Assembly (NCBI GenBank): GCA_003138795.1
Contig: PLHC01000164.1
Location: 1,018 to 41,302 of the forward strand
Direction: 5' to 3'
DNA from: Granulicella sp.
GTDB lineage: Bacteria; Acidobacteriota; Terriglobia; Terriglobales; Acidobacteriaceae
DNA: 40,285 nt
The position numbers were made by a program, and so were the translations under genes. The notes under the pieces were generated by a model. It was not told where the DNA came from, ran no database searches, and worked only from the letters and a program-made list of their open reading frames with translations. Positions 33,021 to 35,653 of the stretch are shown one piece after another. The stretch's first letter is position 1. Each line of letters opens with the position of its first letter.

Positions 33021-34547
33021 ATGAGCAGTGCGGCGCAATGCGACGAAACACCCGAAAGCTACCTTTCCACGGGCACGGAGGGCGGCGCTGGGGTGAGGCA
33101 GCTTGCAGCAGAGCGGCTGGCGGCGCATCGCAGCCGGCGGGCGGTGGTCGAAGGCCGCGATGCACAGGAGCGGCGGGAGCAGACTGAGGCGCAGGCAGCG
33201 ATACGGCTGCAGGCACGTCGCGATGCGGCCCGCGCAGATGTGCATCCAGACGCATCGCGGGTGAGGGAGGCGGTTGCTGCGCGGTATCAGCAGAGCGTGA
33301 GCTATCGCGAGTTTCTCGCCGCCGAGGCGCAGCGGGCGCTGGAACGGGCGCAGGCCAAGGCAGAGGTCGCGGTGCGCAGTGCAAAGGCTGTGGCTGCAGC
33401 GCAACGACAGCTTCTGGAGGAGATCGAGCAGTGGAACCAGCCTGAGATGGCTGCAAGCGCAGACGCGGGCGAGTCGTTCAGCGAGCCGCCGCTGCTGGAG
33501 ATCGTTGAGCCGCGCGCTGTTCGTTCCGTTGCGAGTGCAGCAGCAAGCGCGGGGGATCAACGCGCACAGGCAAAAGCGCATGAAGAGGCGAGCGTTGAGT
33601 TGCCGTGCAAAGCCGTTGAGTTGCCGCGCAAAGCATTGCCACCTGCAGCGCTGCCACCCGCAGCGCTGCCACCCGCACGATTGCAGGTGCGGCTGCATGA
33701 GGAGATGGAGCTGGCTTCGGAAGCGAGCACGTTTTATGTGCCCGCGACGACGGCTCGGGTAGCTGCCGAAGAACTCGCCGAGCTGGATGAGGAGATTGAG
33801 TTTCGCCGGGCTCCGGAGTTTGAAGACCTGATGCTGGAGACACAGCCGATCCAGGCCAACATTATCGAGTTTCCACGGCAGCTGGTTGCCTCGCGCAGGG
33901 CGCGACCACGGCTGGCGGAGGGACCTCTGCGCGAGGATGGCACACCGCCGCCGCAGTTGCGCATCTTCGAGGTTGAGCCGGAGCAGATCTCGATAGAGCC
34001 GGAGCTGGCTGCGCCGGCTGAAGCGCCGGAGTGGCAGGGATTGCTGCTGGGGGATGGGATGTCGGTGAAGATCGACGCAGACGTCAGCATGTCTCCGCAG
34101 CTCGAGGCGCAGCTTGAGCTCGACCAGCAGCTGTATGTGGCACCAATGCGGCGGCGGATGCTGTCGGTGGCGGTAGACGCGCTCTGCGTCGGAGCCGGGT
34201 TTGCAGGATTTGCGGCGGCGGCTTTGAAGATTGCCGGACAAGCCCTGCGCGAGACTCCGCTGCCCCTGCTGGGCGGAGCGGCTGCGGGCACGATCATGGT
34301 GTTTGCTGTGCTGTACCAGCTGCTGTTCTTCACGCTGAATGAGGCGACACCGGGGATGCGCGCTACGCGCCTCGCCTTCTGCACGTTCAATGAGAAGAAC
34401 CCGACGCGCAAGGCGCTGCGGCGGCGGCTGGTGTCGACGGCGCTGGCGGCCTGCCCGCTGGGATTGGGACTGGTGTGGACGGTGCTGGATAGCGATCGGC
34501 TGGGGTGGCATGACCGCATGTCGCGCATGTATCCGCGGGCGTACTAG
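33021..34547 (+). CDS. RDD-family membrane protein with long charged N-terminal region
   Basis: The RDD domain is a small membrane domain of largely unknown, possibly transport, function. The 508-residue protein devotes about residues 1-370 to a Glu/Arg/Ala-rich, probably disordered or coiled-coil region; residues 20-140 have coiled-coil character. Short degenerate repeats LPPAALPPAALPPA occur near 208-222. The RDD domain follows (about 374-508) with APMRRRMLSVAVDALCVG, a NEATPGMRATRL loop and RLGWHDRMSRMYPRAY at the end. AAGGA lies 9 bases before the ATG. The stop codon TAG falls inside the first unit of the downstream heptamer repeat. Confidence 0.88.
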   Translation: MSSAAQCDETPESYLSTGTEGGAGVRQLAAERLAAHRSRRAVVEGRDAQERREQTEAQAAIRLQARRDAARADVHPDASRVREAVAARYQQSVSYREFLAAEAQRALERAQAKAEVAVRSAKAVAAAQRQLLEEIEQWNQPEMAASADAGESFSEPPLLEIVEPRAVRSVASAAASAGDQRAQAKAHEEASVELPCKAVELPRKALPPAALPPAALPPARLQVRLHEEMELASEASTFYVPATTARVAAEELAELDEEIEFRRAPEFEDLMLETQPIQANIIEFPRQLVASRRARPRLAEGPLREDGTPPPQLRIFEVEPEQISIEPELAAPAEAPEWQGLLLGDGMSVKIDADVSMSPQLEAQLELDQQLYVAPMRRRMLSVAVDALCVGAGFAGFAAAALKIAGQALRETPLPLLGGAAAGTIMVFAVLYQLLFFTLNEATPGMRATRLAFCTFNEKNPTRKALRRRLVSTALAACPLGLGLVWTVLDSDRLGWHDRMSRMYPRAY

Positions 34548-34612
34548 GTACTAGATACTAGGAAGTAGGAAATAGGAAATAGGAAGTAGGAAGTAGGAAA
34601 TAGGAAGTGAGG
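34542..34612 (+). repeat. Heptamer repeat array, left arm of the four-helix-bundle cassette
   Basis: Ten consecutive 7-bp units (the last imperfect) of consensus (T/A)A(C/G/A)TAGG run from the RDD stop codon to five bases before the next gene. Early units read TACTAGG, later ones AAGTAGG or AAATAGG. The segment 34581-34600 is the exact reverse complement of 34975-34994. Confidence 0.9.
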
Positions 34613-34616
34613 TCTT

Positions 34617-34967
34617 GTGGCGGAGGGATATCGGGACCTGATTGTGTGGCAGCGCGCTGTGCAGATGAGTGTCGCGCTATATCGGCTGACAAGCGACTTT
34701 CCGCGCGAAGAACTGTATGGGCTGAGCAGTCAGCTGCGCCGGGCGGGAGTGTCTGTGGCAAGCAATATCGCCGAGGGATGGGGTCGGCAGTCAGACGGGG
34801 AGTACAAACAGTTTCTCGGAATGGCACGTGGCTCAAATCTCGAAGTCCAGACCCAAATGGTGATCGCATCTGAGCCGGGCTTCGGTGATCCTGTAAGAGG
34901 CAAGCTATGCAATGGCCTCTCGGAGGAGGTCAGCAAGATGCTGGTTGCACTCATGCGCTCCATCTAA
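34617..34967 (+). CDS. Four-helix-bundle protein (TIGR02436, 23S rRNA intervening-sequence protein family)
   Basis: Family of small alpha-helical proteins first found in intervening sequences of 23S rRNA and related to Avd, the accessory protein of diversity-generating retroelements; their function is not established. The 116-residue protein has the family landmarks DLIVWQRAVQMSVALY (near 7-22), FPREELYGLSSQLRR (28-42), VSVASNIAEGWGR (45-57) and GEYKQFLGMARGSNLEVQTQ (61-80). The last helix is SEEVSKMLVALMRSI. The start is GTG at 34617 with GAGG four bases upstream. The gene is bracketed by inverted heptamer repeats and fills almost the whole space between two unrelated convergent genes, suggesting an inserted cassette. 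Confidence 0.92.
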   Translation: MAEGYRDLIVWQRAVQMSVALYRLTSDFPREELYGLSSQLRRAGVSVASNIAEGWGRQSDGEYKQFLGMARGSNLEVQTQMVIASEPGFGDPVRGKLCNGLSEEVSKMLVALMRSI

Positions 34968-34974
34968 AACGGTC

Positions 34975-34997
34975 TTTCCTACTTCCTACTTCCTGCC
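34975..34997 (-). repeat. Inverted heptamer repeat, right arm of the four-helix-bundle cassette
   Basis: CTTTCCT-ACTTCCT-ACTTCCT-type units, i.e. the left-arm heptamers on the opposite strand. 34975-34994 pairs perfectly over 20 bp with 34581-34600. The array stops exactly at the stop codon of the convergent cytochrome gene. Confidence 0.9.
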
Positions 34998-35474
34998 TTA
35001 TGGCTGATCGGGAGGCATGACCGCACCCGCCTGAATCCACTGTGTAATGGTGGCGATATCGGCGTCGGAGAGCTTACTCTTGGGCGGCATCGGCATGGGG
35101 TGGTCGACGGGGCCTTCGTGGCGGATCAACTGGAGGAGCAGAGATTGTTGAGGATTCCCGGGTACGATGGCGGCGCCGGTGTGGCCGCCTCGCAGCAGGC
35201 CAGTCCTGGTGGACATGATGAGGCCGCCGCGGTGGATGAAGCCGCCGTGGCAGCGATAGCAGTTGGCCTGAAAGATGGGCCGCACGCACTGGGTGTAGAA
35301 CTCCACCGAGTTGGATGCTGGAGTGGCCTTTGTGTCGCGGCCGTGTGACCGCCAGACGATCGCGGCGGCTGCCAGCAACGCGACTGTCAATGAGAGCGAG
35401 AGAGCGGCGGTCTTGCGGTTGAATATCGAGCGGAAGTTTGAGCATGGGACAGCGGCAGGCTGATTGCGGGACAT
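34998..35474 (-). CDS. PSCyt1-type monoheme cytochrome c, membrane-anchored
   Basis: Periplasmic c-type cytochrome of the type common in Planctomycetes and Acidobacteriota (PSCyt1 / cytochrome C domain). The 158-residue protein has an N-terminal anchor (about 23-42). The heme motif CYRCH lies in VRPIFQANCYRCHGG near 66-80, followed by RGGLIMSTRTGLLRGG and the axial-Met candidates in HPMPMPPKSKLSDADI. The ATG at 35474 was chosen because GGAG lies 9 bases upstream; a TTG 18 codons earlier lacks one. It usually occurs fused to larger DUF1549-type proteins, but here stands alone. The gene ends exactly at the inverted repeat. Confidence 0.87.
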   Translation of the reverse strand: MSRNQPAAVPCSNFRSIFNRKTAALSLSLTVALLAAAAIVWRSHGRDTKATPASNSVEFYTQCVRPIFQANCYRCHGGFIHRGGLIMSTRTGLLRGGHTGAAIVPGNPQQSLLLQLIRHEGPVDHPMPMPPKSKLSDADIATITQWIQAGAVMPPDQP

Positions 35475-35653
35475 CAAGCGAATCTCCGTAATCAACCCAC
35501 TGTAGCGCGAAAGGCGCGCATGGCCCAAAAGCGCGTTTGCGAGGCCAACGCGCAGGGTGCTGTTGCGGACAATGCCACGAATCCGAATTGGTACTATCGC
35601 GGCGATGCTGGTGGAGATAGCCTAATGAAGCTCGGCGGCTTTCGCGGCCACCT

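Follow-up and report, generated by a model that had tools for sequence, protein, structure and literature searches.

Why does a small gene of the 23S rRNA intervening-sequence protein family stand between two protein genes of an acidobacterium, framed by short tandem repeats that mirror each other? The question is raised by a 40,285-nucleotide stretch of Granulicella sp. (GenBank assembly GCA_003138795.1, contig PLHC01000164.1, positions 1,018 to 41,302), the whole of which is called the window here. An initial annotation of this DNA had described a four-helix-bundle gene between oppositely oriented arrays of 7-bp units, had compared the block with an intervening sequence (IVS) of 23S rRNA, and had suggested that it may be mobilised or excised as RNA. 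According to our analysis, the cassette is probably one copy of a widespread and ancient element, IVS-like and at the same time similar to RAYT genes with their repetitive extragenic palindromic (REP) repeats, in which protein and arms belong to one system that also seeds dispersed arrays. The features concerned are the following.

34541 to 34608, plus strand: about nine units of 7 bp, forming the left (upstream) array, from the sequence, the inverted-repeat list and a period-7 scan.
34617 to 34967, plus strand: four-helix-bundle gene (TIGR02436 / PF05635) with a GTG start and 116 amino acids, from profile matches, an AlphaFold2 model and Foldseek.
34975 to 34994, minus strand: inverted array on the right (downstream), a perfect 20-bp complement of 34581 to 34600, from the inverted-repeat list.
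34548 to 34997, no strand: whole cassette between both stop codons, 450 bp, from the sequence and the near-empty junction in genomes G012, G001, G019 and G017.
33021 to 34547, plus strand: left host gene, an RDD-family membrane protein (PF06271).
34998 to 35528, minus strand: right host gene, convergent, a PSCyt1 cytochrome (PF07635).

Both ends of the block are tied to stop codons, as had been annotated. The first unit of the left array, GTACTAG (34541-34547), consists of the last seven bases of the RDD gene itself, including its stop TAG (34545-34547), and is followed by a second GTACTAG, an ATACTAG, and then GAAGTAG and GAAATAG units up to 34608. The right array ends 3 nt before the cytochrome stop codon (TTA, 34998-35000) and, seen from the cytochrome side, opens as the stop codon plus GGCAGGAAGTAGG. 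The perfect 20-bp match between 34581-34600 and 34975-34994 tops the inverted-repeat list of the 901-bp region. Its score of 20 compares with a maximum of 13 in mononucleotide shuffles of both flanks (0 of 2000 reached the observed value), and these shuffles, together with the placement controls below, rule out a chance repeat. No rRNA family match was found within 34000-35600, where the cassette adjoins the RDD and cytochrome protein genes and does not lie inside an rRNA gene. A known RNA family was also considered for the block and rejected, the best Rfam match being sub-threshold (E 0.77).

Does the block look like an insertion when related genomes are compared? The RDD C-terminus was located in 26 of the 28 genomes of the genus, and a convergent cytochrome gene was within reach in 12 of them. 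In four of these 12 (G012, G001, G019, G017) the junction is near-empty, with 12-36 bp from the RDD stop to the cytochrome match, against 454 bp in the window; G017, classed here, may by eye be an eroded array. The gene is intact in two (G000, G009) and decayed in one (G011), gene-less inverted arrays occupy the junction in three (G013, G025, G016), and other hairpins in two (G002, G022). The empty-site comparison proposed by the annotation therefore favors an insertion-like block. The case in which all relatives carry the gene here with unrelated flanks, which had been set against the proposal, is not what the genus presents: the gene is patchy, and the arrays that flank it at other sites follow the same design.

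The junction also records how copies change. Its units differ across genomes (TAGGAAG, CAGGAAA, the 8-mer CAGCGGAA, TAGAGGA and TAGGGAT), and each is found in both arms of its copy. In G013 both arms are kept, and the remnant between them reads, by eye, GKMLVALMRTI-stop, the end of the four-helix-bundle protein, which shows directly one way in which gene-less hairpins can form. In the protein tree, the window protein and its site-mate in G009 are sisters. The site-mate in G027, where the gene lies behind RDD without a cytochrome match, does not clearly group with them, so that the RDD site may have been occupied on two occasions. Repeat-linked genes at this junction are of more than one kind. 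In G021 (L188:861-1337, minus strand) the junction contains a 159-aa Y1 IS200-like transposase (PF01797) with GTGCCCCACATC repeats alongside, similar to a RAYT. In G002 and G022 (L197, L198), 301 and 407 bp of the junction are filled by other hairpin-like repeats around GTGCCCCAT...CGACGCGCG.

The same design is found far beyond this site. The protein family is present in 42 of 61 genomes (the window's own and 60 relatives, from genus to class), with 126 matches and at most ten per genome, and in none of 14 control genomes. From 91 loci fetched of the 126 matches, those left out being mostly weaker or partial, 97 gene hits were scored, with fragments and one overlapping locus pair included. 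The score was the best ungapped inverted match between the 300 bp on each side of the gene, with a threshold of 14. This was reached by 73 of the 97 hits and by 2 of 290 control placements at other positions of these loci, mostly in coding DNA; a score of at least 16 was reached by 65 hits and no control placement. For public genomes, a search seeded with one motif (RAAVS[VI]PSN) supplied the 80 best of 588 relatives; 54 of these loci are outside the Acidobacteria by record title, ANME-1 and Methanomicrobiales among them. Scores of at least 14 were found for 22 of the 26 acidobacterial and 40 of the 54 other loci, against 3 of 320 control placements. Below the threshold were Chloroflexi, Nitrospirales and Tenebribacter loci, and the sole chromosomal cyanobacterium, whose upstream flank was cut at 40 nt. 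Inverted flanks are also present on plasmids, at 9 of 15 loci (15 of 29 records were fetched, all cyanobacterial), and on viral contigs, at 10 of 11 partly non-independent loci (L317/L318, L320/L321). After dropping hits with fewer than 80 profile columns and duplicates sharing the protein and the upstream 60 nt, matching inverted flanks remain at 147 of 186 distinct loci, in Acidobacteria and about ten other phyla including archaea. A motif private to the window's genome is ruled out by this recurrence of arrays across many phyla. The annotation's expectation of inverted heptamers around TIGR02436 genes in other genomes holds for the design, but the unit is usually not the window's own.

The element thus consists of a four-helix-bundle gene flanked by two mutually inverted arrays of 7- or 8-bp units. 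It lies between host genes, often directly after a stop codon. Its length is about 430-720 bp (5th to 95th percentile, n=131), with a median of 492. The best period among the 133 loci scoring at least 16 is 7 in 110, 8 in 21 and 6 in 2, taken as the best of 5 to 10, so that scarcely periodic arms also receive one; for elements scoring below 12, period 7 was found in only 9 of 29. Across 56 six-kb loci, the density of period-7 arrays is 2.04 per kb within 250 bp of the gene and 0.10 per kb elsewhere, and that of period-8 arrays 0.25 and 0.05 per kb, against a background mostly in coding DNA. Periods 6, 9, 10 and 11 contribute 1, 1, 0 and 0 arrays near the gene. Heptamers that are equally common without the gene had been named as evidence against the annotation. 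The objection holds in part: gene-less dispersed arrays do exist, but the density of period-7 arrays rises twentyfold next to the gene. In one locus (L027), the arrays on both sides have the same, not inverted, orientation.

Concerning their surroundings, 98 of 131 cassettes follow the 3' end of an open frame and 69 of 131 lie between co-directional frames; these ends come from open frames rather than annotation, and the TAG within arrays biases distances to the stop codon. On annotated cyanobacterial plasmids, cassettes lie between cas6 and cas4, between cas10 and cmr3, and within runs of transfer genes. A published survey lists 18 family members (23S_rRNA_IVP genes) in cas loci (PMC3936711). 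The cas6-gene-cas4 and cas10-gene-cmr3 contexts recur in our plasmid loci L231, L232 and L239, where the gene carries its own arrays, twice between cas6 and cas4 and once between cas10 and cmr3. That paper does not use the word heptamer. The arrays seen here suggest that the gene came to lie in CRISPR loci by insertion among cas genes and not through a role in Cas function.

The two arms of an element belong together. In the 133 elements chosen at a score of at least 16, an element's own arms have a median score of 23, compared with 9 for arms swapped between loci, of which 11 of 400 reach 16. In L017, the order of the unit variants is itself mirrored between the arms. Units of the NAGNNNN type vary between loci and agree within a locus, which indicates that both arms change together. 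The same variation speaks against one fixed terminal repeat, as in insertion sequences (IS): inverted ends are present but locus-specific. No direct duplication is evident by eye at the RDD site. Reading towards the gene, AG is present in 115 of 131 units, and CT in 34. Similar proteins tend to have similar units, a real but weak correlation (Mantel r 0.15; for pairs sharing less than 65% identity, 0.10; 0 of 999 permutations in both cases), which suggests that the units drift fast. Period-8 units do not mark one protein clade: of the 21 nearest neighbours of such elements, only 6 have period 8 themselves. Avoidance of identical units within a genome was considered as well; none of 58 pairs shares a unit, which says little because identical units are rare overall. 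As a separate observation, L063 and L059 occupy the same site in different genera and have the unit TAGCTTC in common, with proteins that are 54% identical and belong to different tree groups.

What kind of protein lies between the arms? The window protein matches TIGR02436 with 109.6 bits (cut-off 24) and PF05635, "23S rRNA-intervening sequence protein", with 114.8 bits (cut-off 33.8). Its AlphaFold2 model has four helices (pLDDT 96.9), and the nearest structure by Foldseek is 2gsc, Xcc0516 (TM 0.94). A likeness to the fold of Avd, which is a pentamer in diversity-generating retroelements (DGR), was found with 4dwl and the DGR ribonucleoprotein (RNP) entries 8ubb and 8ub7 (TM 0.75-0.78). This Avd-like fold points to a possibly pentameric nucleic-acid scaffold. 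Identity with Avd is 12-14%, the E values are weak (0.03-0.3, above 0.001), and, different from Avd systems, no reverse transcriptase was recognized among the six window neighbours scanned. According to PMC4990558, Xcc0516 itself assembles as a five-membered ring, and no function is known for the S23/IVP protein of rRNA intervening sequences. The ratio of nonsynonymous to synonymous substitution rates (dN/dS) was 0.05-0.13 in 8 of 11 pairs, where five of the eight have a dS of at least 0.8 and several share members; the remaining three, including the saturated window pair L013/L056, gave no ratio. As judged from these ratios, the protein of these elements is under purifying selection.

Arrays of the gene's own unit are scattered through genomes without a gene beside them. 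Hits here are overlapping registers rather than sites, and include the gene's own arms. In the window genome, TAGGAAGTAGGAAGTAGGAA (up to two mismatches) has 22 overlapping hits at five places, against 0 for the reversed control pattern. Besides the cassette these are four places, two of them inverted pairs. Three genomes of the genus carry a gene with the 8-mer unit CAGCGAGT, and precisely these have 39, 39 and 17 hits of it, whereas the other 25 have 1-7 hits (three genomes) or 0 (22 genomes). Repeated NAGTWSYCAG was found 146 and 236 times in two genomes with a matching gene unit, against 0, 0, 0, 1 and 6 times in five others.

Some of these arrays are recent. The sister genomes G002 and G022 have 14 places each of the CAGCGAGT unit, the gene's included, and of the fetched sites 11 are common to both and three are unpaired on each side. 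Three of the six unpaired sites were tested, and all three lack the array in the sister genome. One unpaired array lies inside a long open frame (L270), and another replaces, by eye, the last codons and the stop of a gene (L272). In L275, a 48-nt array insertion in a long open frame is surrounded, by eye, by an 18-bp direct duplication. Among the listed 8-mer arrays (L261-L293, gene arms included), 21 of 36 are in a same-strand open frame of at least 700 nt and three in an opposite-strand frame. Selection or detection bias may explain this skew, as the other direction introduces stop codons.

Which known systems resemble this arrangement? REP/RAYT (TnpA-REP) loci consist of a small single protein gene flanked by inverted repeats, with many gene-less repeat copies in the same genome. 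The elements described here share with them the matching repeats that flank the gene and scatter without it, weakly so in a Lysobacteraceae genome. They differ in that their protein is a four-helix bundle without a Y1 (HUH) domain, the Pfam scan of the cassette gene giving only PF05635, and in that their repeats are short tandem units and not one palindrome.

The IVS of 23S rRNA is the second relative. IVSs with an open reading frame (ORF) for S23p are listed for Leptospira, Coxiella and Brucella, and the Coxiella IVS, 428 nt long and excised by RNase III, has two or three GACAGAT heptamers, depending on the strain, in front of this ORF (PMC4990558). Rotated, GACAGAT reads CAGATGA, an NAGNNNN unit. 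The likeness drawn by the annotation is borne out by the protein family, the length (428 nt in Coxiella against our median of 492), the ORF in the loop of a stem, and tandem heptamers before the same ORF. The differences are that the window element lies outside rRNA genes, that both of its arms are tandem arrays of 7- or 8-mers, that dispersed gene-less arrays accompany these elements, and that the protein is intact and apparently constrained, while the Coxiella ORF is described as decaying (PMC4990558). Beyond this paper, no literature linking gene and arrays was found, in a search whose coverage mostly lay outside subscription journals.

Several findings weigh against an element that couples protein and arms and spreads its units. 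The gene itself is settled. One and the same site is often occupied by a cassette in several genomes (eight at most), where the flanking frames are mostly 74-95% identical; at the best-sampled shared site, the element proteins are 53-92% identical. No pair of gene copies from the same genome exceeds 66% protein identity (120 pairs), which means that no recent jump of the gene was seen, and which speaks against recent within-genome transposition of whole cassettes. The gene is mostly inherited in place. The mobility suggested by the annotation thus holds in part: gene-bearing copies have mostly been long resident at orthologous sites, and any movement of the gene must be infrequent or date far back, whereas that of the arrays is more recent.

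Further points on this side concern the coupling. The flank threshold is missed by 39 of the 186 distinct loci. One well-supported clade at a single conserved site in four genomes (L079, L081, L092, L101) has no arrays, and a pair from it has an equally low dN/dS, so that the protein may have a job without arrays; perhaps this is a domesticated copy. Conversely, TAGGAAR arrays (12 hits in G006, 6 in G025, 5 in G014) and TAGCTTC arrays (74 hits in G019, 10 in G027) were found where no intact matching gene was found. G019 is 59% complete, and a matching gene either lies in the absent portion or has been lost while its arrays persisted. In the Lysobacteraceae genome, only two places carry the unit, one of them the gene's own, and at the L275 insertion the sister genome already has about 1.5 units, a pattern expected from slippage. 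With a pI of 6.5, the window protein is not basic (the median of 186 cores is 8.3). Pfam scans recognized no nuclease, recombinase or reverse transcriptase in the cassette or in its six window neighbours, which are RDD, PSCyt1, LptD, DUF5715, GatB and one without a family. For Coxiella, PMC4990558 concludes that S23p is probably not made and that its ORF can be dispensed with, and it reports heptamers only upstream of the ORF.

Could the arms be kept alike at the level of RNA? In such an element, as in the 23S IVS, the arms would be selected as an RNA stem cut by RNase III, and pairing in the transcript would keep them alike. The protein family and size, the heptamers and RNase III excision in Coxiella, and the position of the cassettes behind open frames and between co-directional ones all favor this. 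So does the predicted fold of the window transcript, in which both arms pair around the gene (-171.5 kcal/mol, z -2.4, with 1 of 100 shuffles equally good). Under this explanation, mismatches between the arms that are compatible with G-U pairing should exceed their mirror class, but they do not (120 against 132; 41 against 42 elements). The lack of a sense-strand wobble excess speaks for a process at the DNA level or by copying, and not for RNA-stem selection, which is not visible in the mismatches. Moreover, single gene-less arrays have no pairing partner. We therefore regard an RNA-level element as possible, if on the doubtful side. Its likelihood, and those of the two explanations that follow, overlap with that of the favored reading.

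Heptamer repeats have also been explained without any element. Slippage has been proposed as the source of bacterial heptamers (cited in PMC4692102). Arrays would then be made by slippage and hairpin template switching at gene ends, mutation would keep the arms in step, and the protein would be a tolerant host gene. The partial units in the sister of L275, the arrays in genomes without a matching gene and the protein clade without arrays are what such a process could leave. It is harder to reconcile with the twentyfold concentration of period 7 and the fivefold concentration of period 8 at the gene, where periods 6 and 9-11 are hardly present, and with arrays whose dispersal matches the gene's unit. 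Inverted pairing around a gene is not expected from slippage alone. We consider this account unlikely. More improbable is a domesticated role of the cassettes, as bidirectional terminators or stabilisers of 3' ends whose stem is bound by the protein to regulate the host genes, a reading that fits cassettes just behind open-frame ends, gene-less arms flanking a terminator-like hairpin in L009 and L202 (by eye), and long residence under purifying selection, but not the patchy presence with near-empty and decayed sites, the differing host genes, the arrays inside long open frames, or the copies on plasmids and viral contigs.

Returning to the favored reading, of protein and arms as one system, how might it work? 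By analogy with RAYT proteins and REP repeats, a pentamer of the protein, as known for 2gsc and Avd, would bind the stem formed by the two arms. The protein would help to copy array sequence into new places that offer a few matching bases, putatively through a polymerase or reverse transcriptase; the window array looks, by eye, as if seeded on the host's TAG stop codon. Slippage and template switching between inverted tandem repeats could let each arm correct the other and so keep the two alike. Where the cassette is transcribed, the stem would keep the insert apart from the host message, and inside 23S rRNA this would be the known IVS, cut by RNase III.

A bolder version can be put forward tentatively, as a possibility well short of likely. 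In it, the element would be of a novel, self-spreading type and would consist of a single small protein serving as RNA scaffold, together with two inverted arrays whose repeated word could be almost any NAGNNNN(N) sequence. An Avd-like pentamer would hold the folded transcript, a host polymerase or reverse transcriptase would copy the units while realigning on the AG core in a telomerase-like way, and the product would patch in at matches of a few bases, such as the stop TAG and other AG sites.

If this were true, the four-helix-bundle element would be the source of most bacterial heptamer repeats and of rRNA intervening sequences. Published heptamers include GGGAATC in Xanthomonas and GGGGA(C/T)T in Nostoc (PMC4692102), and TAACTGA in Beggiatoaceae, Cyanobacteria and Bacteroidetes (PMC4679880). 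Like the arrays described here, they have 7-bp units and are mostly intergenic, and those of Xanthomonas often form inverted pairs (70 and 75 cases; PMC4692102). On its other strand TAACTGA reads TCAGTTA, a CAGTTNT unit like several elements here. They differ in that inverted pairs are few in Nostoc (PMC4692102) and in that both papers leave their origin open (PMC4692102, PMC4679880); a text search of the two found no mention of S23 or of a four helix. Heptamer repeats without an agreed origin and a protein so far without a function (PMC4990558) are thereby joined in one testable unit, which also offers a possible explanation for the S23/IVP gene in CRISPR operons. In genomes such as G022, array gain seems recent enough to be followed, and the element may be a source of unexplained bacterial repeats.

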